From positions 193,735-257,734 of the forward strand of contig CABIXN010000001.1 in the NCBI GenBank assembly GCA_902362715.1: a stretch of 64,000 nt of DNA. The letters are read 5' to 3'. The stretch is from Lachnospiraceae bacterium (GTDB lineage Bacteria > Bacillota > Clostridia > Lachnospirales > Lachnospiraceae). Position numbers and translations under genes: made by a program. Within the stretch, counting starts at the first letter, position 1; every line of letters begins with the position of its first letter. The notes under the pieces were generated by a model, which was not told the origin of the DNA, did no database searches, and was given only the letters and a program-made list of their open reading frames with translations. Shown in pieces: positions 8,446 through 61,217 of this stretch.

Positions 8446-9438
8446 ATGCAGACAAACAAAGAAGCTTTACTGGCATTGTTCCGTGGAGAGAAGGCAGATT
8501 TTATTCCGGAAATTTATTCAACCATGAAGGATGTAGTGTTTCCAGGAGAACGTTTTATCGAATTAGGAGATAAGTTTGATCCTTATGGTACCGGTCCTGA
8601 TGCCTGGGGAGTTCTGTGGACCAATCAGGGCCCGAATCCTATGATCGACGGAAATATGGTAGCAAAAGATTTTAAACTGTTTGATGATATGGATGAATGG
8701 AAAGAGAAAGTTAAATTTCCGCCATTGGATTTTATGCCTATTGAAGATATTTTTAAGGGAATGTGTCATGGTATGCATGTAAATCCTGAAACAGATGTGG
8801 TCAGCTGTCTCCTTCTGTCCGGTCAGTTTGAACGTATGAATCAGATGATCGGTATGGAAAATGCACTCTGTGCGTTTTATGAATATCCGGATGAGGTGCA
8901 TAAATTTTTTGACGCTATGTGTGAATATAAGTTAAAATGTATTGATCTGGCATATAAATATCTGCATCCGGATATGATTCACATGCACGATGATTGGGGA
9001 ACAAATGATAATATGTTCTTTTCACCGGATATCTGGAGAGAGTTTATCAAGCCAAATGAGAAAAAATATGCAGACCGGATTCATGAACTTGGCATGATTT
9101 ATATGCATCATTCCTGCGGATATATCCAGCAGATCATTCCTGATCTTGTGGAAATTGGAGTTGACTGTATAGAGCCGGTAATGGTGAAAAATGATGTAGA
9201 CTATATTTTGGATAATTTTGGTGATAAAATTACAGTAGTAGGAGGTCTGGACAACCAGAAAATGGAAGCTCCTGGTTCTACGGAAGAAGAGATTCGGGCT
9301 GAAATTAAAGCAAGAATGGACCGGTATGTAAATAAGGGCAGATACGTTCCATATTATATTCCTACAGACGAATCCAAATTTGGAATTTACATTGATGAAG
9401 TAAATAAATATGGAAGAATGATAGAATTGAAAAAATAA
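8446..9438 (+). CDS. UroD/MtaA-family protein A (putative methyltransferase)
   Basis: A 330-residue member of the uroporphyrinogen decarboxylase superfamily, on the branch that includes corrinoid-dependent methyltransferases (MtaA, CmuA-type) rather than heme enzymes. It has an HDDWGT segment at residues 181-186 and a HHSCG motif with candidate zinc ligands H222 and C224. A second member lies at 16900-17883 on the other strand and shares the NMFFSPDIWRE block. No corrinoid protein gene is visible nearby, so the methyl donor and acceptor are unknown. The in-frame GTG at 8443 is rejected because AAAGGAG fits the ATG at 8446 better. It stands alone, ahead of a terminator. Confidence 0.8.
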   Translation: MQTNKEALLALFRGEKADFIPEIYSTMKDVVFPGERFIELGDKFDPYGTGPDAWGVLWTNQGPNPMIDGNMVAKDFKLFDDMDEWKEKVKFPPLDFMPIEDIFKGMCHGMHVNPETDVVSCLLLSGQFERMNQMIGMENALCAFYEYPDEVHKFFDAMCEYKLKCIDLAYKYLHPDMIHMHDDWGTNDNMFFSPDIWREFIKPNEKKYADRIHELGMIYMHHSCGYIQQIIPDLVEIGVDCIEPVMVKNDVDYILDNFGDKITVVGGLDNQKMEAPGSTEEEIRAEIKARMDRYVNKGRYVPYYIPTDESKFGIYIDEVNKYGRMIELKK

Positions 9439-9503
9439 GCAGCTTTTCGGTTATACGAGACTGTGAAGAGAAGTTTGTAAATAAAATTTCTTCTATGATA
9501 ATG

Positions 9504-9547
9504 AAGGGTAAAAGGCTACAGAAAATAGCACTTTTACCCTTGTTTTA
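9504..9547. terminator. Bidirectional terminator between convergent genes
   Basis: The stem AAGGGTAAAAG (9504-9514) pairs with CTTTTACCCTT (9531-9541) and is followed by TGTTTT. An A-rich 5' side allows use from the minus strand as well, where the PucR-type gene ends. Confidence 0.8.
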
Positions 9548-9572
9548 TATATAGCAGTTATTAAAAGGCATG

Positions 9573-11168
9573 TCAAGAAAAGGAATCTGCCGCCTGCAGG
9601 GTCTCAACATCCAGACAAATCAGACCGAGGTATAGTTGAAGGATATCTGACAGATCTTCAAAATGAATCGAGAATAGATTCTCCATGCGGTTTAGATGAT
9701 ACACAACATTATTGCGATGCATGTGAAGGTGTCCGGCGCAGGAATTTTTCTGGAGGTTGTGTTCTAGATAGCTGCTTAGGATTTTTAGATAATTTGTGTG
9801 TTTTTGCTTGTCGTGCTCCTTTATGTGGAGAATGCGGGAGTCTATGATGGATAAGCGGGAAAGTGCTCCCAGCTGGTGTCTGCAGGAATCATAGAGTCTG
9901 TAGTTTTTGTAAAAATAAAATGGCGGATTGGCCCCTGGGGGAGTCAACAGTAAAGGATTTGTATTTTTAGTAAATTGTGAGACAAGATTCAAGGTGGCAT
10001 CTGTCTGTTTCTGGGCAGAAGAGAGTTCAAGAATCTGACGGAAAGGCAGACTGACTGCACATATTATATGATGTAACTTCAAATCTGCAGAAAATTGTTG
10101 ATAGAGAAGGGGAAAAGATTCTGGATAAGAATGTTCTTGTATAGAGGAGTTATATAATAAAATCAGAATATGATTGTGGTAACGGAATACATAGGCATTT
10201 TCCAGATAATCCTGTATAGAGCGAATAAAGAAATCTTTAGACAGCTGCGAGGCGGCATCAAGTTTTAGCTGCAGAAGGAAAAATTGCGATTCAAAAGGAA
10301 GACCAACATAAGAGAGCCGGTCTTTTAATGAAGTAAGGTCTAAATCAGTTTCATTCATCAGGTCATTGAGCAGAGATTCGTATATATAGGAATGATTGAG
10401 ATAAGATTCCTGTTTTCTAATCAAGAGGATCGAAACATTTTCCAGAAAATTCTCCATGAGATGCTGATAGAACGTAAGATGCTCCATAGAAGGAAGCAGG
10501 AATACGCAATAGCCGCAGCAGCTTTGATTCTTTTCAATTTTGTGAATTATACTGGCATGTGTCAGTTCCGAGTTAGATTCAATGATATATTTTTGATTTT
10601 TGATTCGTTCAATCATGTTCAGACGTTCAAAAGTAGCCAGAGTCTGGGAAGGCAGAGAGCCCAGTGTCGTGGCGCTGGAAAAGACGGGATCTTCCAGATT
10701 GATATTCTGGCTGTATGCAAGTACTTTCAGACTGTTATCATAGATAATGGCGGGTAAATTAAGAAGGGCTTCACTGATATTCATCATATCCTGGAGCTCT
10801 TTTTGCTCAATTAAACAGTTGTTCATATCACGATCCCAATTCTTATAACGGATATAAATGGACTGTAAAGAGTTGAAGATAATCGCAGGTTCTGAATCTG
10901 TCTGAATCGTAATAACTGGAAAACCCTCTGGCGGAAGTATGGTCCTGCATACATAGATAAGTGCCAGGTGAACCGGCACTTCTTCTGAAATAATAGGATG
11001 TCCTTCCTGGGAAAAATACAGGTAGGAAATATCAGTCAGTTCCTTCTGGTAGGGAAGCAGTCGAATTCCTTCGAAGGAGTCTAGGTGATCTGTACAGTTG
11101 TTTGTAATAGCAATATCTTTATGTTCTTTTTGTAATTCTGTTAAAAGCATTGTTAATGTAATCTTCAT
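9573..11168 (-). CDS. PucR-family transcriptional regulator
   Basis: A 531-residue regulator with an N-terminal sensory half of unassigned fold. The C-terminal PucR-type helix-turn-helix lies at about residues 465-515 and contains the HMHRNNVVYHLNRME block that defines the family. Such proteins usually activate catabolic genes in response to a small effector. A 33-base upstream extension to the ATG at 11201 has no ribosome binding site, whereas AAAAGGAAA precedes the ATG at 11168, so the shorter form is chosen. It is divergent from the FabK-like gene, which makes it the obvious candidate regulator of the 11472-15232 operon. Confidence 0.88.
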   Translation of the reverse strand: MKITLTMLLTELQKEHKDIAITNNCTDHLDSFEGIRLLPYQKELTDISYLYFSQEGHPIISEEVPVHLALIYVCRTILPPEGFPVITIQTDSEPAIIFNSLQSIYIRYKNWDRDMNNCLIEQKELQDMMNISEALLNLPAIIYDNSLKVLAYSQNINLEDPVFSSATTLGSLPSQTLATFERLNMIERIKNQKYIIESNSELTHASIIHKIEKNQSCCGYCVFLLPSMEHLTFYQHLMENFLENVSILLIRKQESYLNHSYIYESLLNDLMNETDLDLTSLKDRLSYVGLPFESQFFLLQLKLDAASQLSKDFFIRSIQDYLENAYVFRYHNHILILLYNSSIQEHSYPESFPLLYQQFSADLKLHHIICAVSLPFRQILELSSAQKQTDATLNLVSQFTKNTNPLLLTPPGANPPFYFYKNYRLYDSCRHQLGALSRLSIIDSRILHIKEHDKQKHTNYLKILSSYLEHNLQKNSCAGHLHMHRNNVVYHLNRMENLFSIHFEDLSDILQLYLGLICLDVETLQAADSFS

Positions 11169-11215
11169 GAAATTTTCCTTTTGTCTCATAAATTTATTCA
11201 TAATATACGAAAGAA

Positions 11216-11234
11216 CCTGTATTTATTATACAGG
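11216..11234. promoter_or_regulatory. Inverted repeat near the PucR gene start
   Basis: CCTGTA-N7-TACAGG, a perfect 6+6 inverted repeat about 48 bases before the start of the PucR-type gene. It is a plausible operator half-site pair for autoregulation; function is inferred. Confidence 0.4.
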
Positions 11235-11346
11235 AAAATGGAATAGGAATCAAAACATATGTATTGTTAAAAATAACAAAGTAAGAGAAAAAATCAAAAG
11301 TAATATTTGTTTTTACACATAATGAAAAAAAATAAGGTTCAAACTA

Positions 11347-11360
11347 CAATAAATTTATTG
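11347..11360. promoter_or_regulatory. AT-rich palindrome upstream of the flavoenzyme operon
   Basis: CAATAAATTTATTG, a perfect 14-base palindrome 111 bases before the ATG at 11472. It is a possible regulator site. AT-rich palindromes of this size also arise by chance in such sequence. Confidence 0.3.
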
Positions 11361-11471
11361 AGATAAGTAAACATCATAAAGACTGAAAAATTTGAATTAG
11401 AGCAATGCTGTTACACAAAAAGAAATGAATAGGAAGCAGGACAGTAAAAAGTAGTAGGAGGACAAGAGCAA

Positions 11472-12437
11472 ATGAACAGAGTATGTGAAGTATTAAACAT
11501 TGAAAAACCTGTAATTCAGGGACCAATGGCGTGGATTTCGACTGCACCGTTGGTAGCGGCAGTATCCAATGCAGGGGGACTTGGAATTCTCGGAGTAGGA
11601 TTCGCGCCAGAACCATTTATTCGGGATCAAATTGTACAGACAAGAAAACTGACAGACAAACCATTCGGTATGAATACGATTATGATTCCAGATAATCTGG
11701 AACATATTACAACAATTATCTTAGATGAAAAACCACCAGTGGTTTATGCAGATACCATTGCCGGTCTGGATATGAAATTATGTAAAAAGTATTTTGATTT
11801 GTGGCATAGTGTGGGGTGTAAGGTCGTTGTCAAAGCTTCTTTTATTGAAGATGCTGTGATTGCAGAAAAAGCAGGAGCAGATGTGATGATTGTGAAAGGC
11901 TGGGAAGGCGGCGGGCATGTTACATTTGAAGCAACGACAGTGCTCGTACCACAGGCAGCGGACCTTATGAAAATTCCGGTTATTGCCAGCGGCGGATTAG
12001 CAGATGGAAGAGGTATGGCAGCAGCGATTGCACTTGGCGCAGAAGGATTTGAGATGGGAACTGCATTTATGGCAGCAGTGGAAACGACAGTGCATCCCAA
12101 CGTCAAGAAGGCAGTTATTGAGGCAGGAGATATGTCGACTGTCATTACCGGATACTGTACCGATGAGCCTTGCCGTCAGATTAAGAATAAACTTGCTGAT
12201 GAGATGATTGCAGTAGAAGCAAATAATACGAAGGCTGAGGCTGCTAAGAAGCTTCGTCCAATTGCAGAGAGCTCATTAAAGAAAGCAATGGCAGAAGGAG
12301 ATATGATAGACGGTGCTGTTATGGCGGGTCAGATTACAGCTCTGGTGAAAAAAGAAAGAACCTCAGCAGCAATTATTGACGAGGCATTAGCAGAGGCAAA
12401 AGAGATTTTAGCACATATCAATGAATTTCAGTTTTAG
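11472..12437 (+). CDS. FabK/nitronate monooxygenase-like flavoenzyme
   Basis: A 321-residue FMN-dependent TIM-barrel protein of the 2-nitropropane dioxygenase / enoyl-ACP reductase II family. IQGPMAWIS at residues 15-23 begins the flavin site. KGWEGGGH (142-149) carries the conserved histidine, and IASGGLADGRG (171-181) binds the FMN phosphate. In fatty-acid synthesis FabK reduces enoyl-ACP, but this gene is not beside other fab genes. It opens an operon with a PhlG-family hydrolase, a ferredoxin and a large flavoprotein. Reduction of a conjugated C=C in a catabolic substrate is therefore the favoured inference. GGAGGA precedes the ATG. Confidence 0.85.
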   Translation: MNRVCEVLNIEKPVIQGPMAWISTAPLVAAVSNAGGLGILGVGFAPEPFIRDQIVQTRKLTDKPFGMNTIMIPDNLEHITTIILDEKPPVVYADTIAGLDMKLCKKYFDLWHSVGCKVVVKASFIEDAVIAEKAGADVMIVKGWEGGGHVTFEATTVLVPQAADLMKIPVIASGGLADGRGMAAAIALGAEGFEMGTAFMAAVETTVHPNVKKAVIEAGDMSTVITGYCTDEPCRQIKNKLADEMIAVEANNTKAEAAKKLRPIAESSLKKAMAEGDMIDGAVMAGQITALVKKERTSAAIIDEALAEAKEILAHINEFQF

Positions 12438-12455
12438 ATATAAGGGGGTAAAGTG

Positions 12456-13277
12456 ATGGATAATATGCAGAAGTCAAAAGTTCTGGTCAGTGAAGAAGAT
12501 CAGCAGAAAAGTTATTTTAAATACTATCTGCAGGAACTTGCACAGGCAGAGCCAGAACATTATGAGCGATTTTTAAAGGCACCGATTTCACCAGAACAGG
12601 CATTAGCATTTTCGGACAGAAATGGTCTATTTGAAAATATGGAGGAGAAAGCAGAGATTGGATACTGCATCATGCCGGATGGTACAGGATACATAGCAAA
12701 TCTTACCAAAATGCCTGGAGTAACTACTGAAATGATAGACTGGTGGTTTGCATGGCATGGTCTGGATAATCTGCGTTATAAGATCTGGGATCCGGAAGAC
12801 CATTATAAAGCAGAGACACAAAATAAAGTCCGGGCATTGGATTTAAGCTTAAGCTACCGGGAAAGATTATGGGATACGACACATGAGATTACAGAGGATA
12901 CGGGTATGGGGCCTGACAATATTGTAATTAACTTTAAGTATCCGGGGGATGTAGGATATGATGTATCAAAAATTGGCACAAAAGCTTGTTCAACGCTAAT
13001 TGTTGGAAAAGGATTTGGCAAAGGGCAGCCGCCGCTTGCAACAATTCCAACAATTATGACACATTTTGTACGAGAAGTAGAAGGCGGCATTGAGCTTCGT
13101 TCCAGATTTTGGATGGGATGGACTTATGAAAATGGAAGAGATGTGAAAATACTTCCGGAAGGTATGCGGGTTCCGCCCATGGGACCTATGTCACTGGGGG
13201 CGCATTGTATTAAAGAGTTTACAAATCTTGCAGCAATCCTTCCACAGGTATATGCGGAGGAAAAGGATAACTTTTAA
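12456..13277 (+). CDS. DAPG/phloretin hydrolase-family (PhlG-like) C-C hydrolase
   Basis: A 273-residue protein that I assign to the 2,4-diacetylphloroglucinol hydrolase family. This zinc-dependent family cleaves C-C bonds next to a carbonyl and includes the phloretin hydrolase of the gut bacterium Eubacterium ramulus. The family-like block IDWWFAWHGLD is at 94-104. Candidate metal ligands are H116, E147 (31 residues later, the same spacing as H129 and E160 of PhlG as remembered), and H250 and E254 in an HxxxE arrangement; H203 may match a catalytic histidine. An in-frame GTG at 12453 is passed over for the ATG at 12456 behind a GGGGG site. The true substrate is unknown; acetoacetate decarboxylase is a less good alternative. 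Confidence 0.75.
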   Translation: MDNMQKSKVLVSEEDQQKSYFKYYLQELAQAEPEHYERFLKAPISPEQALAFSDRNGLFENMEEKAEIGYCIMPDGTGYIANLTKMPGVTTEMIDWWFAWHGLDNLRYKIWDPEDHYKAETQNKVRALDLSLSYRERLWDTTHEITEDTGMGPDNIVINFKYPGDVGYDVSKIGTKACSTLIVGKGFGKGQPPLATIPTIMTHFVREVEGGIELRSRFWMGWTYENGRDVKILPEGMRVPPMGPMSLGAHCIKEFTNLAAILPQVYAEEKDNF

Positions 13278-13292
13278 TGAAGGGAGATTCCT

Positions 13293-13556
13293 ATGATTCA
13301 GACAAATCATAAAATTGAATTTGACAGCAGCAGATGCATCGGCTGTCAGATCTGCTATAAAGCTTGTTTTGTGGATGTCATCCGTTGGGATGAAGAAAAT
13401 AAAAAACCAATTTTCAAATATGTAGAGGATTGTGAACATTGTAATTATTGTGAAGTGAAATGTCCTAAGGAATGTATTAAGGTCATACCGGATTATGCAA
13501 GTCAGAGCTTTCGTCAGACTTTCAACCGTTACAGTAAGTATTATAAGGGGGTGTAA
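13293..13556 (+). CDS. 2x[4Fe-4S] ferredoxin-like protein
   Basis: An 87-residue protein with two complete cluster motifs, C15-C18-C21-C25 and C47-C50-C53-C57, both spaced C-x2-C-x2-C-x3-C. The layout resembles the iron-sulfur beta subunit paired with AprA-like flavoproteins. It ends two bases before the flavoprotein gene, so the two are coupled and the protein probably passes electrons to or from that FAD enzyme. It begins 15 bases after the PhlG-like gene with a GGGAG-type ribosome binding site. Confidence 0.9.
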   Translation: MIQTNHKIEFDSSRCIGCQICYKACFVDVIRWDEENKKPIFKYVEDCEHCNYCEVKCPKECIKVIPDYASQSFRQTFNRYSKYYKGV

Positions 13557-13558
13557 GA

Positions 13559-15232
13559 ATGAAGCAGACAAAGATTGTGCAGAAGAAAATAGAGACAGAC
13601 ATTCTGATTGCAGGCGGTGGAATCGGCGGGCTGAGTGCTGCAGTAACAATCAAAGAGAATAATCCGGAGGCAGAAGTTTTGATTGTTGAGAAACAGACAG
13701 CAGGATATGCAGGAAAAGCCAACAAAGGCGGCGGCGTATTACAGTACTTTGATCTTGAGAAAACAACCCCAATGGATTTTGTTGCATATCATGCGAATAT
13801 GGTAGGATGCTATCTTGGTAATCAGAATATGATGCTGAAGTATGTTGCTATGAATAATGAGATGTTAGATAAACTGGAGGAATGGGGCGTCAAGGTTCCA
13901 AAGAACCGCATTCCAACCGGACCAATGACTTACATGGTAGGAGTAGACCTTGATATTACATTACAAGTTCGAAAAGTAGCGGCAAAGCTGGGTGTAAAAT
14001 TTATGGATAAGACAACAATATCTGATTTGCTGGTGACTAACGGAAAGATTGCAGGAGCGGCAGGCTACAATATTCTGGATGGTACATTTTATGAGTTTAA
14101 TAGTAAGCTTGTTATCATGGCTACCGGAAGTCAGAATTATCGTGTTGCATCAATGTGGAGTAATGGAAGAGGAGATGGTATTGCAGCGGCATATCGTGCT
14201 GGAGCGCAGATGAGGAATCCGGAATTTGGGAATTTTTCTCAGCTTTTCCGAGTAAATAGTAACAGAGAATGTGTTTTCGGTGAAAATGTAATGTATGATG
14301 CATATGGAGAAAATATTACGAAAAATTTCCGGCGTTTTCCTGAGGCAGATATCTCTTCTAGTGCAGTTGCGGAATGGTACAATCAGGTATCTGCAGGCAG
14401 AGGTCCAATCTATCTTCATATTGATGAGAACCCTATGACAAGTAATGAAGAAATGATGCTTCATGCATGGGAAAGACCTTATGGTTTGCGTTTCTGGGAG
14501 ATTGACTTTGAGAAAGCATCTACAGTAGATAAAGACTGGGAGGTTGTACCCGGATTTGTTGGGGAGCAGTCCCCTGTTAAAGTGGATGAAGAAATGCGTA
14601 CCACAATTGATGGAATGTATGCGATCGGGGATTTAAGCTATGGTGGATCTGCAGCACCAGGAGCAGTGCCGGCACCTCCGGGACGAAACAGAGGGTCTGG
14701 AATCCTGAACGCTGTATTTGCTGCAATCATTGCAGGAAGAAATGCGGCTTTAGCTGTAAAACAGACAAGTCAACAGCCTGTGGATACAGCACAAGTTAAG
14801 ACCTTGAAAGAGAATGCTTTTGCACCTCTTTTCAGAGAAAAGGGGATTACTGCGAAGGAACTTATCTCACAGGTGCAGGATGTGATCTGTCCGGTAGAGA
14901 ACAGTGTATATATGAGTGGGCATCGTTTAGAATCAGCACTTAGAAAAATAGAACAATTAAAGCCTCTTGTTTCAGAATTAAAAGCAGAAGATCTACATGA
15001 TATGTTGTCTTGTCATGAAGCAGAAGCAATGGTACTTTGCGCAGAAATGCAGTTTCGCGGAGCGCTGATGCGTAAGGAATCCAGAGGCTGGTTTTTAAGA
15101 GAAGATTATCCGCAGATGGATAATGACAATTGGTTAAAGTGGATCGTGTGTAAAAATGAGAATGGAACAATGGTATTTGATACAGAGGAAGTACCTATTG
15201 ATACTTATCCAATCCAGCCACCGAGATTTTAG
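13559..15232 (+). CDS. FAD-dependent oxidoreductase, AprA/fumarate-reductase-like
   Basis: A 557-residue flavoprotein. The N-terminal dinucleotide-binding GGGIGG is at 19-24 and the acidic ribose-binding residue follows at the VEK segment near 45. A second FAD contact, TIDGMYAIGDLS, lies near 350. The C-terminal domain matches the adenylylsulfate reductase alpha / succinate dehydrogenase group. The histidine used for covalent FAD in SdhA is absent (GKANKGGG there), so FAD should be noncovalent. It is coupled to the ferredoxin gene and closes the operon before a terminator. It could reduce or oxidise a C-C bond of the pathway substrate; the reaction is not known. Confidence 0.85.
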   Translation: MKQTKIVQKKIETDILIAGGGIGGLSAAVTIKENNPEAEVLIVEKQTAGYAGKANKGGGVLQYFDLEKTTPMDFVAYHANMVGCYLGNQNMMLKYVAMNNEMLDKLEEWGVKVPKNRIPTGPMTYMVGVDLDITLQVRKVAAKLGVKFMDKTTISDLLVTNGKIAGAAGYNILDGTFYEFNSKLVIMATGSQNYRVASMWSNGRGDGIAAAYRAGAQMRNPEFGNFSQLFRVNSNRECVFGENVMYDAYGENITKNFRRFPEADISSSAVAEWYNQVSAGRGPIYLHIDENPMTSNEEMMLHAWERPYGLRFWEIDFEKASTVDKDWEVVPGFVGEQSPVKVDEEMRTTIDGMYAIGDLSYGGSAAPGAVPAPPGRNRGSGILNAVFAAIIAGRNAALAVKQTSQQPVDTAQVKTLKENAFAPLFREKGITAKELISQVQDVICPVENSVYMSGHRLESALRKIEQLKPLVSELKAEDLHDMLSCHEAEAMVLCAEMQFRGALMRKESRGWFLREDYPQMDNDNWLKWIVCKNENGTMVFDTEEVPIDTYPIQPPRF

Positions 15233-15269
15233 GTATTGAAAGTATCTGATGCGGATATCATCTGCTTAT

Positions 15270-15304
15270 AAATTAGAGCCGCCTTAATGGGTGGCTTTAA
15301 TTTT
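15270..15304 (+). terminator. Intrinsic terminator of the flavoenzyme operon
   Basis: An AAATTAGAGCCGCC arm pairs (with wobble) to GGGTGGCTTTAATTTT across an AAT-type loop. It lies 38 bases after the flavoprotein stop codon. Confidence 0.8.
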
Positions 15305-15476
15305 GACTAAAGGATGTAGTTTGGAGGGAGATTGAAAAAGTAATACGATTGGTTCTATTGTAAGAGGAGAAGATTTAATAAAACTGCAGGTGGAGAGGGA
15401 AAAGGCAGTTTCTGGTATATAAGTGTTTTGGAGTTTGTGTTATAATAATTCCATTATAATACCGGGGGAAAAGAAA

Positions 15477-16409
15477 ATGACAATTGTACAAATCAAGTAT
15501 TTTATAACAGTAGTAAAATGTGCCAGTTATACAAAGGCGGCAGAACAGTTATTTATTTCTCAGCCGGCACTCAGCAGACATATTAAAAATATGGAAGAAG
15601 AATTAAATATTCAGTTGTTTTTGAGAACCAATAACGGCATACGTCTGACTCCGGCAGGCAGTTCGCTTTATGTGGGGATGCTTGATCTGTATGAAAATTA
15701 TATTGAGATGGTAAATAAGGCGGAAAAGATTCAAAAGGGATTAGACGGCACACTAAAAATAGGAATACTGGACCAGACCAATGTTTCTGATTTTATGCCT
15801 ATGATTTATCAGTATTTTCAGGAGAATTATCCCAATGTAGATCTGTGGTTTCAGGAGGGTTCTTTTAACTATCTGGTGTCAGAACTTTACAGCGGCCGGC
15901 TGGATTTGATCTATACACTGAAGTTTGAGATTGAGCGCAAAGAAGGTATTATGTATCAGTATGTTTCCCATTCCAAGGACCATATTGTTATGAGCCGTTT
16001 TCATCCCCTGGCAAAAAAGGATCAGGTAACATTGGATGATGTGAAGGACGAAACTTTTGTTTTGATTTCGGAAGAGGATAATCCGGAGTCGGCGCCTCTG
16101 ATTCTGGCTCTCTGCAAAGAACACGGGTTTGTTCCGCAGGTACATTATGCAAAATCCTTAGCAGAGCAGATTCTCTGGATCGCAGTGGGCATGGGTGTAT
16201 CTATTCTGGATTCACGAACCTATTTAAAGCTGAACCCTGATGTGAAGTTTTTTGAAATCGACAGTAACTGGGATCCGTCGCTTGTAATTGCATGGAACCA
16301 GAATAATTATAATCCGCTGCTGTCTGTTTTCATAAAAAAAATGAATGAGATACTGGGAACGGAAGAGGAAGATATTCACGGTGCCGGTCTGGAAAAGGAC
16401 AGACCATAA
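15477..16409 (+). CDS. LysR-family transcriptional regulator
   Basis: A 310-residue LysR-type regulator. The winged helix-turn-helix occupies residues 1-60 (YTKAAEQLFISQPALSRHI), followed by a periplasmic-binding-protein-like effector domain. The in-frame ATG at 15423 would add 18 unusual residues without a ribosome site. GGGGGAA sits before the ATG at 15477, so the shorter form is used. It lies between the flavoenzyme operon and the second UroD-like gene and symporter, and may control one of them. Confidence 0.9.
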   Translation: MTIVQIKYFITVVKCASYTKAAEQLFISQPALSRHIKNMEEELNIQLFLRTNNGIRLTPAGSSLYVGMLDLYENYIEMVNKAEKIQKGLDGTLKIGILDQTNVSDFMPMIYQYFQENYPNVDLWFQEGSFNYLVSELYSGRLDLIYTLKFEIERKEGIMYQYVSHSKDHIVMSRFHPLAKKDQVTLDDVKDETFVLISEEDNPESAPLILALCKEHGFVPQVHYAKSLAEQILWIAVGMGVSILDSRTYLKLNPDVKFFEIDSNWDPSLVIAWNQNNYNPLLSVFIKKMNEILGTEEEDIHGAGLEKDRP

Positions 16410-16435
16410 CGTTAGTAAAACAGAGCGAGATTTGA

Positions 16436-16464
16436 TTGACAGAAACAGGCTTTCGGAGTAAAAT
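16436..16464 (+). promoter_or_regulatory. SigA-type promoter of the HMA protein gene
   Basis: TTGACA (16436-16441) and TAAAAT (16459-16464) with a 17-base spacer, 49 bases before the ATG at 16513. Confidence 0.7.
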
Positions 16465-16512
16465 TCTGTAAAAAGGTTAGAGAAAACTAACTATAGGAAA
16501 GGACTGACAGAT

Positions 16513-16764
16513 ATGGTTAAAACGACAGTTAAAATTGATGGAATGCAGTGCGGAATGTGTGAAGCTCATATGAATGACGCCGTAAGAAATGAATTTAAAG
16601 TCAAGAAAGTAACTTCATCTCACAGCAAAAATCAGACGGAAATTATTTCAGAGGACGAGCTGGATGTACAGAAATTAAAAGACCTGATTCAAAAGACAGG
16701 CTATACTTACATAGAGTCCAAAACAGAACCCTATGTAAAAAGAGGGTTGTTTCACCGGGGGTAA
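16513..16764 (+). CDS. Small heavy-metal-associated (HMA) domain protein
   Basis: An 83-residue cytosolic protein with one HMA ferredoxin-like fold. The metal-binding loop GMQCGMCEAH contributes C13 and C16. Such proteins usually carry copper(I) or a similar soft metal, often to a P-type ATPase, but no ATPase gene is nearby. The last 15 residues are basic and atypical. It has its own promoter and terminator, so it is probably monocistronic. Confidence 0.85.
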   Translation: MVKTTVKIDGMQCGMCEAHMNDAVRNEFKVKKVTSSHSKNQTEIISEDELDVQKLKDLIQKTGYTYIESKTEPYVKRGLFHRG

Positions 16765-16802
16765 TTCAAAACATGTAAGATGTAATATTTAAGAAAATAA
16801 AA

Positions 16803-16837
16803 AACCTCACCTGCTGTCAGGTGGGTTTTTTATTTTA
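16803..16837 (+). terminator. Intrinsic terminator after the HMA gene
   Basis: ACCTCACCTG and CAGGTGGGT form a stem with one bulged T around a CTGT loop, followed by six T residues. Confidence 0.85.
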
Positions 16838-16899
16838 CAAAGCATCGCTTTTTCCTTGAGAAACTGAACAATATGGAATGTGTCAATGAGAAAGCCTGA

Positions 16900-17883
16900 T
16901 TACTTATCTTGATAAACTGTTTTTCCGCATTTTGCGATTTCATCAATCATAACATCTGTAGTCCATCCGCCGAATGGGAGGAACATAGGGAAGTAGCAGT
17001 AGCCTTCTGCCGTTTTATAAAATACTTCCCGCACTGCTTTGCGGACATCCTCTTCAGTTACAAGCCCTGCAAGAGCATCTGTCTGATATTTCTGATAGTC
17101 CGGTGTTACATGGTATCCCAGGTTCATGCCGGTGAGTTTTTTTAATTTTGGAATGTCATTGATTTCCATTCCCTGCCATGCGTCAATTCCAAGCTCCACA
17201 AATTCCGGAACAATTTCTTCCATTTTACCGCAGGAGTGCATATCAAAAAGCACGCCCAGTTCGTGGCAGCGGTCAACTGCTTTTTTGATCTGAGGTTTAA
17301 TCAGTTCTCTCCAGATATCCGGGGAAAAGAACATATTGTTCTGTGTTCCCCAGTCATCATGGAACATCAGGACATCCGGTTTATAAATTTCAATAACTTT
17401 TTCCATCAGTCTGAGTTTCCATTCCATAAATGCATTCAGAAATGCCTCTACCTCTTCCGGGTCAGTAAGAAGCGCACACAGTGCATTCTCAAATCCCATG
17501 AGCATATGCAGTCTTTCAAATGGTCCGTTTACGAACATCATTTCAAAAACTTTATTTTCACGGTCAATTTCACTGATATGATCAATTTCTTCTACACGGC
17601 TCCAGTCCCAGGCGTCCAGATCTGGGAATTTGACAACCTCCCGCCAGTCGCAGATATCTTCTAGAATCGGATCCTGAGTATGATCCGGTGCAATGGCATC
17701 TACACTTGCTTCATATTTCCACTGTACTCCGAACCAGTCAGTCCCTCCTGTTGTGTGAGGGGGGCGTTCCGCGTAAGTCTCCGGATTAAATAATACGAAA
17801 ATACCATCATCAGTAGGAAGTGCGTCAGTAGGCTCGTGACGGAAAAAGGCCAGAGCGCGTTCTTTTGGTGTCATTTCTTTCAT
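16900..17883 (-). CDS. UroD/MtaA-family protein B (putative methyltransferase)
   Basis: A 327-residue second member of the uroporphyrinogen decarboxylase/MtaA superfamily, paralogous to the gene at 8446-9438. It shares HDDWGT at 175-180, the NMFFSPDIWRE block and a HSCG motif with candidate zinc ligands H216 and C218. The open frame runs 162 bases further upstream, but AAGGAG sits eight bases before the ATG at 17883, which also begins the conserved MTPKERALAFF-type N-terminus. It is divergent from the sodium symporter gene, and the shared gap implies joint control. There is no corrinoid partner in view and the function is unproven. Confidence 0.8.
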   Translation of the reverse strand: MKEMTPKERALAFFRHEPTDALPTDDGIFVLFNPETYAERPPHTTGGTDWFGVQWKYEASVDAIAPDHTQDPILEDICDWREVVKFPDLDAWDWSRVEEIDHISEIDRENKVFEMMFVNGPFERLHMLMGFENALCALLTDPEEVEAFLNAFMEWKLRLMEKVIEIYKPDVLMFHDDWGTQNNMFFSPDIWRELIKPQIKKAVDRCHELGVLFDMHSCGKMEEIVPEFVELGIDAWQGMEINDIPKLKKLTGMNLGYHVTPDYQKYQTDALAGLVTEEDVRKAVREVFYKTAEGYCYFPMFLPFGGWTTDVMIDEIAKCGKTVYQDK

Positions 17884-18243
17884 TATCATTCTCCTTATAA
17901 AAATAATATGATTTGAAGGTACAGTTTTCAAAATAAAACCGGCAGATAAAACGCTGTGGTCTGGTTTGGAAAACTGCAATGAAAAGTCTGCGGTGTTTTT
18001 ATCTGCTTTTATTATAAAAGAGCTGTAATGACAATGCAAATTCAAAACCGGTATGGCGCTATTGAAAAATGGTATGGGGTACAGCAGAAAGACCTATACA
18101 GAAAATGTATATGGGTATTCATTTTTGATATTTGGTTTCTGTTATAGGTATTGCTACAATATAGTTATGAAAAGTTTGCATTTATTTTATCATTAATTTA
18201 CAAAATTTATTAATTATTAATAATTAAAAGAAGGGAGAAAGAG
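17884..18243. other. Divergent intergenic region between UroD-like B and symporter
   Basis: A 360-base non-coding gap. The likely symporter promoter is annotated separately. The rest is AT-rich, with a poly-purine ribosome binding site GAAGGGAG before the ATG at 18244. Apart from these signals nothing further was identified. Confidence 0.6.
18132..18160 (+). promoter_or_regulatory. Likely promoter of the symporter operon
   Basis: TTGGTT (18132-18137), 17-base spacer, TACAAT (18155-18160). The -35 is weak, which is compatible with an activator. Confidence 0.5.
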
Positions 18244-19686
18244 ATGAATTTAGGTATTTTGATCGCGATTGTCATCTATGAAGTGGTTTCAATCGCACTG
18301 GTATCGTGGTTTATTTCGCGTAAGAACAAAAAAGGAGGAGAAGGAGCCGGCGGCTTTGCTTTTGCCGGCGGGGGACTTCCGGCATCTTTGGTGGGCATTA
18401 CGCTGGCACTGACACTGCTTGGTTCGGCTCACAACTGGGGAACCTGTCAGAATGCAGCTTCTATGGGTGTTATTGCAGCATGGTTCGGTATTGCCTGTGT
18501 GGTAATGATGGTAGTTATTACACAGATTACCGGTCCGTGGATGCGCCGTACCGGGGCAAAGACATCCGGAGAATTTTTAGGTAAGATTTTCGGGCCTACA
18601 TCCGGAAGATTAATTTCTGCCATGAACATTGCTCTGATTATTGGCATGTGCTGTCTTGAGATGGAAGCCATTGCGGTTACCATTAATCTTATGACAGGAT
18701 GGTCTTATACAGTATCCGCGATTCTTGGCGGTATTGTTGCTGTATTATACGTGCTGCTTGCCGGCATGAAAGAGATTGCATGGCTGAATCTGATCAATGC
18801 GATTTTAATGTATCTGGCTCTGATTTTAGTATTTATCAGTCTGATTTTTGAATTGCCGGGTGGATGGGATGCCGTGGAAACTACAATGAAAGCATCTGCG
18901 GAAACCAGCTGGATGACAGATCTGTTTGGAAATCCTGCTCTGATTGTCGGTTTTGCAATTCCGTCAGCACTGGGAGCATCTTTGTTCCACGGTATGGCTC
19001 AGACTGGATATCAGCCTGTTGTAACTGCTAAAAATAACAAAGAAGTAAAGAAATCTATCTGGTTTGCAGGACCTATCAATGGATGTTTCTGTATCCTTCC
19101 GGCTTTAATCGGATTAGCTGCATTTTCCATTATTGCATACCGAAATGCAGGAGATATGATGATGACACCGGCCATGATGGCTGATCTCCTTCCAAAACCG
19201 GTTCTGGGACTCTTGCTGGCAGGATTCTTGGGTGTAGACCTTTCCTCCTTTGCAGTAATGGCTCTGGCACCTGCAACCATTATCTCACATGATATCTATC
19301 CTCTGAAAAATCCAAAAGTAACAGAGGAGCAGAAGACAAAACTGACACGTATTATCATTGTGATTATTGGTATTGTTTCTATCTTAATCTGTAATATGCA
19401 GCCGGCGGTTGTTAACATGGTTAACTGGAGTTTTGCATTTGGTGTTCCGGTATTTATTATGGGTATCATCGGACTGTGGTGGAAACGTTCCATGAAAGCT
19501 TCTATTATAACCTTTATTGTTACCTGGATTGCAGTGTGTATCTGGTCAACCTTTGGTTTACAGGATTATCTGCAGCTGCCAAACTTCCACGTTACATACA
19601 TTGCAACCATTTTCTCTGTAGTATTTGGTGTTATTACAACGGCAGTCTGCAAAGGGAAAAAAGGTTTATTTGTAAAGAAGAAATAG
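18244..19686 (+). CDS. Sodium:solute symporter (SSS family)
   Basis: A 480-residue integral membrane protein with about 13 hydrophobic segments and the SSS-family layout. It has an N-terminal short helix, a GSAHNWGT stretch after the first core helix, and an AGFLGVDLSSFAVMALAP segment in the conserved sodium-site region. It would import an organic solute with Na+. It is divergent from UroD-like B and followed by two tiny membrane proteins, so it is the probable uptake system for the substrate of this island. The substrate cannot be read from sequence. Confidence 0.88.
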   Translation: MNLGILIAIVIYEVVSIALVSWFISRKNKKGGEGAGGFAFAGGGLPASLVGITLALTLLGSAHNWGTCQNAASMGVIAAWFGIACVVMMVVITQITGPWMRRTGAKTSGEFLGKIFGPTSGRLISAMNIALIIGMCCLEMEAIAVTINLMTGWSYTVSAILGGIVAVLYVLLAGMKEIAWLNLINAILMYLALILVFISLIFELPGGWDAVETTMKASAETSWMTDLFGNPALIVGFAIPSALGASLFHGMAQTGYQPVVTAKNNKEVKKSIWFAGPINGCFCILPALIGLAAFSIIAYRNAGDMMMTPAMMADLLPKPVLGLLLAGFLGVDLSSFAVMALAPATIISHDIYPLKNPKVTEEQKTKLTRIIIVIIGIVSILICNMQPAVVNMVNWSFAFGVPVFIMGIIGLWWKRSMKASIITFIVTWIAVCIWSTFGLQDYLQLPNFHVTYIATIFSVVFGVITTAVCKGKKGLFVKKK

Positions 19687-19714
19687 ATTGTTTCGATAGA
19701 TAGGAGGGATCTCT

Positions 19715-19843
19715 ATGCATATGTGCATTGTTTCAATCGTTCAGGTAGTAGTTATTGTATTTGCAATTACCGGAATCGGTTTTGCCATTGGCAAGTTCAA
19801 TAAATTTGGCTCATCAGATGATATCTGGAAGGAGGATAAGTAG
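19715..19843 (+). CDS. 42-residue single-span membrane protein (symporter accessory candidate)
   Basis: ATG at 19715 preceded by TAGGAGGGA. It encodes 42 residues: one hydrophobic helix (about residues 4-26) ending in GIGFAIGKFNK, then an acidic, tryptophan-containing tail. The stop is immediately followed by the ATG of the next small ORF. Small single-span partners of sodium symporters are known as symporter small accessory proteins; this assignment rests on size, topology and position. It is too short for routine ORF calling. Confidence 0.65.
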   Translation: MHMCIVSIVQVVVIVFAITGIGFAIGKFNKFGSSDDIWKEDK

Positions 19844-19957
19844 ATGACATTAACACAGGCCTGGATGCTGATCATTATTCTGGTAATGGCTGCTTTTATG
19901 GTAGTATCGACTGTCTGGGGGAAGAACAGTGATCAAAAGGACGAGGATCAGAATTAA
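19844..19957 (+). CDS. 37-residue single-span membrane protein (symporter accessory candidate)
   Basis: It starts at the base after the previous stop codon, with GGAGG at 19831-19835 inside the previous gene as its ribosome site. It encodes 37 residues: a hydrophobic helix at about 6-25 and a charged KNSDQKDEDQN tail. It forms a coupled pair with the 42-residue ORF downstream of the symporter. The role is inferred to be symporter stabilisation or regulation. Confidence 0.6.
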   Translation: MTLTQAWMLIIILVMAAFMVVSTVWGKNSDQKDEDQN

Positions 19958-20007: not shown

Positions 20008-20035
20008 TTGACATTAAATTTATAACAGATATAAT
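20008..20035 (+). promoter_or_regulatory. Consensus SigA promoter of the marR-ABC operon
   Basis: Perfect TTGACA (20008-20013) and perfect TATAAT (20030-20035), 16-base spacer. The palindrome of the next feature begins at the very next base. This is the strongest promoter read in the window. Confidence 0.9.
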
Positions 20036-20071
20036 GAATAGCACGCTATGAATTTTCATAGCGTGCTATTC
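20036..20071. promoter_or_regulatory. Perfect 17+17 palindrome covering the marR transcription start
   Basis: GAATAGCACGCTATGAA, a two-base TT centre, then its exact reverse complement. It abuts the -10 box and covers the expected start site. There is no T-run after it, so it is more likely the operator of the MarR protein than a terminator. In RNA it would form a strong 5' hairpin. Confidence 0.8.
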
Positions 20072-20097
20072 ATTGTTCTTGGGAAGGAGAAATTTAT

Positions 20098-59744: not shown

Positions 59745-60023
59745 CACATAGAACAAACCGTTGAGAAAGAGTAGTAAGCTTCTTAGCTGAAATCACAGAG
59801 AGCTGCAGGTGGTGGGATTGCAGTATGGATGCATTAGCTGAATGGACTTTTGAGGGCAGTGCCGAATGCCGCAGGCAGTAGGTGTTGCCGGGAACCGAAC
59901 CCGTTATCAATCCGGCATGTATGATAGTACATGAGAGAGAGGACAACTTTGTCAATTTGAGTGGTACCGCGATAATAAGTATTTTATTACCGTCTCAAGC
60001 ATTATGCTTGAGGCGGTTTTTTT
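59745..60023 (+). promoter_or_regulatory. Tryptophan-specific T-box riboswitch with terminator
   Basis: A complete T-box leader. Stem I has the distal AGAGA...GGTGG loop elements near 59800. The specifier segment is GAA-TGG-A-CTTTTGAG, giving the codon TGG at 59843-59845 (Trp). The T-box motif GAGTGGTACCGCG is at 59959-59971. The terminator pairs ACCGTCTCAAGC (59989-60000) with GCTTGAGGCGGT (60006-60017), then T7. Uncharged tRNA-Trp should stabilise the antiterminator and switch on the downstream transporter. This explains the gap of 485 bases between 59682 and 60168. Confidence 0.95.
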
Positions 60024-60167: not shown

Positions 60168-61217
60168 ATGAAAAAAAGAATTTTAGCATGTGTATTAACA
60201 GGATTAGCTGCTGCAGCAGCTCTTACAGGATGCCAGGGCGCATCTGACAACAAAGGAAATACCTCTGCTTCCAATGAAGGAAGTAAAGTATATAAGGTAG
60301 GAATTGTGCAGTATGTGGATGATGCATCTTTAAATCAGATTGTAGCATCTGTGCAGGATGAATTGGATGCTAAAGGGAAAGAACTTGGGGTGACATTTGA
60401 TTACGGTGATTACACTTATAACGGCCAGGCTGACGCCACTGTGATGAATCAGATTGCTTCCGATCTGGAAGCTGAAGATGTGGACGCTGTTGTACCGGTT
60501 GCTACTCCGGTAGCAATGGTAATTCAGGCATCCACAGCGGAATCGCAGACACCGGTTGTCTTCTCTGCTGTTTCTGATCCGGTAAGCGCCGGGCTGGTGG
60601 AAAGTATGGAAAAACCCGGAAGCAATATTACGGGAACGTCAGATGCCCTGGATACAGAGGCTATTTTGAATCTGATGCTGGCGGCAGACCCTGATATTAA
60701 AACGGTAGGACTTTTATATGACAAAGGCCAGGATTCTTCTCTGGTTCCAATCAAGGAAGCAAAAGAATATTTGGATGAGAAAGGCATTAAATATATAGAA
60801 AAAACCGGTAATACCACAGATGAAATTTCTCTTGGGGCAGATGCATTGATTGCAGCCGGATGTGAAGCAGTATTTACCCCTACAGATAATACGGTTATGA
60901 CTGCACAGCTGGCGATTTTTGAAAAATTCCAGGAAGCGAAAGTTCCCCAGTACTGCGGTGCCGATTCCTTTGCTTTAAACGGCGCCTTCTGTGGATATGG
61001 AGTAAATTATGAAGAGCTTGGAAAAGCAACGGCAGATATGGTAGTGGATATTCTTGTAAATGGAAAGAATCCGTCAGAGATGCCGGTTCAGACACTAGAC
61101 AATGGTATCGCTACAATTAATACAGATACCGCAGAAGCTATTGGACTGGATTACAGTAAGTTTAAAGATATGTGTGAGGCGGTAAAGGAAACTGTTACAG
61201 CAGAAGAGTTTGAATAA
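60168..61217 (+). CDS. trpX: Tryptophan ABC transporter substrate-binding lipoprotein (TrpX-like)
   Basis: A 349-residue exported lipoprotein with signal peptide at 1-21 and lipobox LTGC (C22 acylated). It is followed by a low-complexity Ser/Asn linker and a two-lobed ABC_sub_bind (PF04392) domain starting KVGIVQYVDDASLNQIV. The Trp T-box upstream indicates that the ligand is tryptophan or a precursor. It is the first gene of a three-gene importer operon. Confidence 0.9.
   Translation: MKKRILACVLTGLAAAAALTGCQGASDNKGNTSASNEGSKVYKVGIVQYVDDASLNQIVASVQDELDAKGKELGVTFDYGDYTYNGQADATVMNQIASDLEAEDVDAVVPVATPVAMVIQASTAESQTPVVFSAVSDPVSAGLVESMEKPGSNITGTSDALDTEAILNLMLAADPDIKTVGLLYDKGQDSSLVPIKEAKEYLDEKGIKYIEKTGNTTDEISLGADALIAAGCEAVFTPTDNTVMTAQLAIFEKFQEAKVPQYCGADSFALNGAFCGYGVNYEELGKATADMVVDILVNGKNPSEMPVQTLDNGIATINTDTAEAIGLDYSKFKDMCEAVKETVTAEEFE

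Follow-up and report, generated by a model that had tools for sequence, protein, structure and literature searches.

We describe here a four-gene operon of a Lachnospiraceae bacterium in which a C-C hydrolase of the PhlG type is encoded together with a ferredoxin and two flavoenzymes. It lies in a 64,000-nucleotide stretch (assembly GCA_902362715.1, contig CABIXN010000001.1, positions 193,735 to 257,734 of the forward strand; hereafter the window, in whose coordinates positions are given) and occupies 11472-15232 of it. This core is a real conserved unit whose arrangement goes beyond chance, and a coupling of the hydrolase to the flavoprotein is well supported. That the operon serves anaerobic catabolism, as a module coupling a redox reaction to PhlG-type C-C hydrolysis, is a reading to which we give roughly even credence. 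The plus-strand genes are, in order, a FabK/nitronate-monooxygenase-like flavin mononucleotide (FMN) enzyme (11472..12437; NMO in Pfam, 183.4 bits; best NCBIfam model FabK), the PhlG-like hydrolase (12456..13277; PF18089, DAPG_hydrolase, 259.6 bits against a cut-off of 22.7), an 87-aa 2x[4Fe-4S] ferredoxin (13293..13556; Fer4, 37.8 bits, two CxxCxxCxxxC motifs) and an AprA/PAPS-reductase-like flavin adenine dinucleotide (FAD) flavoprotein (13559..15232; FAD_binding_2 and Succ_DH_flav_C in Pfam). They are separated by 18, 15 and 2 bases, a sequence resembling a ribosome-binding site precedes each, and a PucR-type regulator (9573..11201, minus strand; PF13556, C-terminal helix-turn-helix, 44.5 bits) is divergent from them. 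A preliminary description of this DNA, made from the letters alone, had named these genes and the operon; all the named genes are intact frames at the expected coordinates, and the Pfam assignments agree.

The coupling is seen most directly in natural fusions. At two loci the flavoprotein and PhlG parts form one chain (L084, 9926-12367, 813 residues; L085, 8177-10633, 818 residues), with a ferredoxin gene upstream of the fusion gene in both. A search with the PhlG part only returned 78 fusion protein clusters at E <=0.001 among 799 candidates of full fusion length, every one of which (78/78) is listed with PF18089 and at least the C-terminal domain of the flavoprotein; five carry Oscillospiraceae or Ruminococcaceae names. 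Once 12 fragments or near-copies had been excluded, 66 of the 78 clusters were aligned. All six metal-site residues scored, the four ligands plus two other His, are preserved in 66/66, and the fusions hold an invariant loop motif, GAVPAPPGRNRGSG. An AlphaFold2 model of one fusion, P0126, has a mean predicted local distance difference test (pLDDT) value of 87 and a predicted template modelling score (pTM) of 0.82, so that the relative placement of its two parts is probably meaningful; the loop with the motif is poorly modelled. In a Foldseek search with this model the flavoprotein part was closest to PAPS reductase 8a8o, then to fumarate reductases, and no PhlG entry was among the best 50 rows shown. 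The tie between PhlG-type hydrolysis and a redox step, as proposed in the preliminary description, is thus favoured by the fusions, the intact metal site and the conserved core; the chemistry itself is a prediction from sequence.

Conservation of the core was examined in related genomes. Among 397 genomes drawn from the family of G002, 22 hold a PhlG homologue (E 1e-20), as do 8 in a sample of 391 from its class; the two samples overlap and both count G002 itself. Wherever the PhlG protein is at least 56% identical to that of the window, ferredoxin and AprA-like flavoprotein genes lie within 6 kb on the same strand (11/11 non-window loci), and a FabK-like gene is present in 9 of the 11, the exceptions being L108, where the contig end cuts the locus, and L109, where there is none within 6 kb. 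These 11 loci are not all independent, because L001, L003 and L077 are near-identical. The neighbourhood check nonetheless bears out the claim that the four genes form a conserved unit. Gene order varies, the FabK-like gene being first in the window, L075 and L078, and last in L001 and L077. On a PhlG tree with 90 rows, the window protein falls in supported clades of 10, 13 and 14 rows (support of the 14-row clade 97/94), every row of which has both partners. Eight changes, of which at least 5 are forced, account for the label "ferredoxin and flavoprotein nearby" on this tree, against a mean of 22.8 when shuffled. Excluded from this tree were 11 hits shorter than 650 bases (L108, L031, L033, L034, L144, and two each from L029, L088 and L142) and the exact copies L112 and L128; the locus survey omitted L002, L026 and L076, whose PhlG genes are covered by L077 and L093, and the short loci L035-L074 and L098-L107. 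Ferredoxin and flavoprotein genes also stand near a distant PhlG at five Acidobacteria loci (L013, L014, L021, L023, L031).

L086 and L087 carry a second four-gene operon with a flavoprotein 36-37% identical to that of the window. L088 and L089 keep the FabK-like protein at 82% and 78% identity, whereas the flavoprotein and PhlG reach only 35-38% (the PhlG of L088 is in two pieces); the FabK-like enzyme is thus found with different flavoprotein-hydrolase sets. As to the hosts, the window GroEL is 90-92% identical to that of 4 of the 19 PhlG-bearing genomes examined (18/19 gave a match), 89% in G001 and 79% in G229. A search of the genus around G229 gave matches in one of two genomes, G229 itself, and no further PhlG gene.

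Judged from its alignment, the window hydrolase is a member of PF18089 with a complete metal site. Its residues H116, E147, H250 and E254 align with the four metal-ligand positions of Pseudomonas PhlG and the M. abscessus enzyme, two His and two Glu that we take to be ligands from the PhlG structure, and all seven scored conserved sites are kept in 79 of the 90 aligned rows. Its solved relatives are the M. abscessus phloretin hydrolase (5xe5, E 7.4e-33) and Pseudomonas PhlG (3hwp, E 4.8e-23). With these it shares the family and all four ligands, but it is only 32% and 28% identical to them, respectively, and scores 91.7 bits against the PhlG equivalog NF047887, below the cut-off of 600. The M. 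abscessus and Pseudomonas enzymes, the only two characterised ones placed in the tree, form a separate supported clade outside which the window protein falls, with the warning that a long-branch effect may have brought these two together. We know of no flavoprotein partner for characterised PhlG or phloretin hydrolases. Some proteins of the window clade carry the name phloretin hydrolase in public records.

A first alternative is a flavonoid pathway with substituted reductases. Reduction of the flavone C2-C3 bond would here fall to the FabK-like enzyme; the flavoprotein-ferredoxin pair would replace the known cleaving reductase and reduce the chalcone C=C bond; and the PhlG-like protein would act as a phloretin hydrolase releasing phloroglucinol. 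The family membership and intact metal site agree with it, as does the published route, which, according to PMC7862272 and PMC8084988, runs through flavone reductase, chalcone isomerase and a reductase and ends in phloretin hydrolase. Flavonoid degradation in Eubacterium ramulus, Flavonifractor and Catenibacillus (FLR, CHI, Fcr, Phy) has a logic in common with that proposed for our locus, reduction followed by C-C hydrolysis; the reductase genes beside the window hydrolase, however, appear to be of other families. Of the 25 solved structures related to the FabK-like protein, none is named a flavone reductase. Within 6 kb of the PhlG genes of L006, L007 and L012, such a flavoprotein and ferredoxin are missing; these loci appear to belong to the metagenome-assembled genomes CTSoil_080, CTSoil_081 and Holophagaceae CTSoil_007, in which a phloretin hydrolase is reported (PMC8084988). 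The position of the window protein outside the characterised clade also counts against the flavonoid pathway, which we regard as unlikely; flavonoids or phloretin as the substrate are not supported.

The redox partners are related to known enzymes at some distance. The best solved relative of the flavoprotein is PAPS reductase 8a8o (E 7.5e-26), with AprA also among the best, and its score against the AprA equivalog TIGR02061 (74.7 bits) is below the cut-off of 641.75. Known adenylylsulfate and PAPS reductases have a two-cluster iron-sulfur partner. The window flavoprotein resembles them (1jnr, 8a8o) in its FAD fold and in the small two-cluster ferredoxin gene next door; unlike AprA, it falls far below the model cut-off, is linked to a hydrolase, and has relatives among the fusions that share the loop GAVPAPPGRNRGSG. 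Ferredoxin and flavoprotein would form a two-subunit FAD/2x[4Fe-4S] reductase. The FHPT His and the EALRGEG Arg have catalytic roles in fumarate reductase, succinate dehydrogenase and aspartate oxidase. In the window protein FSQL stands in the place of FHPT, and Val in that of the EALRGEG Arg; we rejected the identification as a fumarate reductase for the absence of these catalytic residues, the comparison being with the aspartate oxidase stretch only. The FabK-like protein shares sequence family and GGH motif (at 147) with FabK and nitronate monooxygenase, its best solved relative being FabK 7l00 (E 7.6e-72), but reaches 297 bits against the FabK equivalog TIGR03151, below the cut-off of 453.1. 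A further FabK-like copy, 36-42% identical, is found elsewhere in 8 of the 9 related genomes searched; in G464 the copies are 47% and 30% identical, and both lie away from its PhlG gene.

Two other redox proteins were observed near PhlG genes. A second FAD_binding_2 flavoprotein family occurs on 12 PhlG stretches (L131:8914-10464 and 11 others; L112 is a copy of L005); its best model is vinyl phenol reductase, but it also scores against ketosteroid and oxocyclohexene dehydrogenases, all below cut-offs. In L091 a 922-aa NADH/Fe-S/FAD protein stands directly before PhlG.

The flavoprotein and ferredoxin could also work in the opposite sense, as a dehydrogenase that makes the ketone or 1,3-dicarbonyl for the PhlG-like enzyme and passes electrons to ferredoxin. 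The dehydrogenase scores of the second FAD_binding_2 family, although below cut-offs, speak for this. The FabK-like partner, however, is closest to a reductase family, and low-potential ferredoxin is a natural electron donor in a fermenter; we regard a dehydrogenase as unlikely.

A branch of the PhlG family has lost its metal site in place. Three or four of the four ligands are missing from PhlG genes of L082 (9859-10689), L083 (6632-7426) and L132 (8439-9131), and each of these degenerate genes stands directly before ferredoxin and flavoprotein genes. The L132 gene is one of two at that locus, the order being degenerate PhlG, ferredoxin, flavoprotein, FabK-like, a transporter gene of the MFS type, and intact PhlG. 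Among database homologues (the best 120 of 1160 were used) and in an alignment of 184 rows (176 proteins and 8 references), from which P0218, P0253 and P0257 (<225 residues) were left out of the ligand count, 52 of the 176 proteins lack at least two ligands. An Arg occupies window position 101 in 50 of these 52, the exceptions being P0078 and the truncated P0101, and likewise in the metal-less proteins of the three loci. The 50 proteins and the three loci form one 53-row clade (FastTree support 1.0) whose members keep 0 to 2 ligands; the genomic context is known for the three loci only. All four ligands are kept in 122 of the 176 proteins, which is not a natural frequency, because the 176 were partly drawn with a degenerate query. 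Assembly error as the source of the metal-less genes was rejected in view of the 53 rows in one clade, 50 of which are separate database clusters.

Since the three members of known context in this ligand-poor clade keep the ferredoxin and flavoprotein neighbourhood, it follows that the PhlG fold has a metal-independent use beside the flavoprotein. One might go further and give the PhlG-like protein a chiefly structural or substrate-binding role, as a subunit of the flavoprotein, with hydrolysis secondary or lost. The clade and its three members of known context favour such a subunit role; the window protein, all 66 aligned fusions and the 122 database proteins, with their four ligands intact, count against it, and we consider it very unlikely.

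The genes around the core are shared with other loci to a lesser degree. Before the core lies UroD1, of the UroD/MtaA-like methyltransferase family (8446..9438, plus strand; URO-D in Pfam, 58.2 bits; HSC motif at residue 222). Beyond it are a LysR regulator (15477..16409 in the frame 15423-16409, plus strand; HTH_1 and LysR_substrate; the Met at 15477 is, by eye, a likelier start than 15423), a small heavy-metal-associated (HMA) domain protein (16513..16764, plus strand; HMA, 25.6 bits), which the preliminary description left unnamed, and a second UroD/MtaA-like protein, UroD2 (16900..17883, minus strand; URO-D, 52 bits, the Pfam match being reported on the minus-strand frame 16903-17910; HSC motif at residue 216). 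A sodium:solute symporter follows (18244..19686, plus strand; SSF, 94.9 bits), with two tiny plus-strand genes behind it, encoding 42 aa (19715..19843, AGGAGGG upstream) and 37 aa (19844..19957, GGAGGA upstream), each with one membrane span by eye. These had been described as tiny partners of the symporter, which their upstream ribosome-binding-site-like sequences and the same arrangement in L111 bear out: the L111 symporter, 43-45% identical and 1.5 kb from a PhlG gene whose product is 48% identical, is followed by two small frames of 33 and 39 residues as in window 18244-19957, the second of which resembles the 37-aa protein by eye.

The proposed association of these outer genes with the core stands in part. 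A UroD1 relative, 67% identical, adjoins the same operon in L081. There (genome G229) the order is a 420-aa UroD-like protein, divergent PucR, FabK, PhlG, ferredoxin, flavoprotein, LysR and the UroD1 relative; the window layout is similar, but has UroD1 at the PucR end and UroD2 past LysR and HMA. PucR and LysR are only 23-26% identical between the window and G229, and PucR-like genes (23-25%) stand beside FabK/PhlG/flavoprotein genes in L077, L081 and L089. A UroD 40% identical to UroD2 is near PhlG in L143. UroD1 gave no match at E 1e-60 in 392 genomes of the order, among which no known carrier was shown. The symporter was also seen near the PhlG of L111 and, weakly, of L032 (35%, opposite strand, 5.8 kb away). 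The HMA protein, which has a 65% match in L123 at a distance of 1.5 kb from a PhlG gene, is at most a tentative member of the core system. This loose sharing of UroD1, UroD2, HMA and symporter speaks for chance neighbours with unrelated functions, an explanation that the conserved and fused core contradicts and that we find scarcely credible.

A role of the UroD-like proteins in prior demethylation, also suggested in the preliminary description, is plausible in view of the enrichment of UroD-like genes near PhlG and of an O-demethylase-like set in L111. A URO-D hit lies within 6 kb of 6 of 34 PhlG genes in 10 hand-chosen genomes, against 1.73 expected from density (P 0.009), a count that misses at least the UroD-like genes L081:8533-9795 and L089:12810-14078, found by Pfam. 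In L111 (712-9669) the symporter, two tiny frames, LysR and PhlG stand with a corrinoid O-demethylase-like set of URO-D, corrinoid protein, pterin-binding protein and CobW, and a further URO-D gene follows PhlG. L110 combines PhlG with a corrinoid protein, two genes from the same UroD family as in L111, and another flavoprotein of the FAD_binding_2 type. On the other side, neither a corrinoid protein (queries from L029, L110 and L111) nor the L111 pterin-binding protein has a match in the 64 kb window (tblastn, E 1e-4), where, apart from the UroD-like genes, the L111 set matches only CobW-like genes at 57.6-59.3 kb. The window thus resembles corrinoid O-demethylases in its UroD-like proteins and differs in that the corrinoid protein and second methyltransferase were not found in its 64 kb. 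Against the MtaA/CmuA model TIGR01463, UroD1 scores 59.3 bits and UroD2 35.7, both below the cut-off of 235.4.

Other gene associations were noted on PhlG stretches. An EthD-domain protein occurs at 9 loci of Pseudomonadota, Acidobacteriota and Actinomycetota records (e.g. L010:9112-9903, L011:9911-11005), and a 364-aa family with no Pfam match at 7 loci of records of these phyla. In L093 (4828-13472) and L138 (1184-13899) PhlG stands with genes of the phosphate acetyl/butyryltransferase and butyrate kinase families (the latter judged on the L137 member), transporters of the MFS type, and PucR-like and UroD-like genes.

Taking the core and its surroundings together, we propose the following for the coupled module. 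The substrate would enter through the symporter and be sensed by PucR and LysR, and it may first lose methyl groups to the UroD-like proteins. The ferredoxin/flavoprotein reductase, aided by the FabK-like FMN enzyme, would then act on a cyclic or aryl ketone, saturating a conjugated C=C bond in it. Bound to this reductase, the PhlG-like metalloenzyme would hydrolyse the C-C bond adjoining the ketone. We infer complex formation in the window strain, the redox direction, the order of steps, demethylation and import; a substrate of the plant-phenol type is our best guess by analogy with the hydrolase family.

Several observations weigh against this proposal. Away from the close relatives the association thins out: both partners lie within 6 kb of only 6 of 32 PhlG genes of 40-55% identity and 9 of 47 below 40%, each band holding one exact copy (L112, L128; neither with the pair) and some contigs ending early. 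A FabK-like gene was not seen within 6 kb at L109 or at the five Acidobacteria loci (L021 and L031 being short or cut). The metal-less clade stayed in place, so that hydrolysis does not in every case explain why PhlG accompanies the flavoprotein. Since the catalytic residues of the fumarate type are absent, the substrate and direction of the flavoprotein cannot be read from known enzymes.

The 20 further genes of the window scanned by Pfam are ordinary, with folate, cell-wall, cell-division, tRNA-synthetase, transporter and similar functions. Just beyond the tiny genes, a 19-pair palindrome (20033-20074), likely the operator of the MarR gene downstream, overlaps the end of a consensus sigma-70-like promoter (20008-20035). 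A T-box leader (59752-60000, 106.8 bits) precedes the gene at 60168, which encodes an ABC substrate-binding protein.

The window system is most closely filed as a variant within the PF18089 hydrolase systems; what surprises most is the existence of the fusions and of the metal-less branch. No description of the core unit was found in our searches of the open-licence PubMed Central literature for phloretin hydrolase with flavoprotein, ferredoxin or nitronate monooxygenase. One might speculate, tentatively, that it represents a new enzyme class, in which a ferredoxin-linked flavoprotein and a metallohydrolase act as one unit across Clostridia and Acidobacteria, reducing a cyclic or aryl ketone and cleaving the adjacent C-C bond without release of the intermediate, and in one branch of which the hydrolase fold would have become a metal-free subunit with a new function. 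Phloretin hydrolase homologues are counted as flavonoid-converting enzymes in gut surveys, according to PMC8398226 and PMC8824206. If the clade consists of flavoprotein-coupled enzymes with other substrates, or has metal-free members, such counts mislead. Since a single protein has both active sites in the natural fusions, the question can be put to a direct test, and the answer could uncover an anaerobic route of general use by which C-C bonds next to ketones are cleaved in compounds of plant origin.

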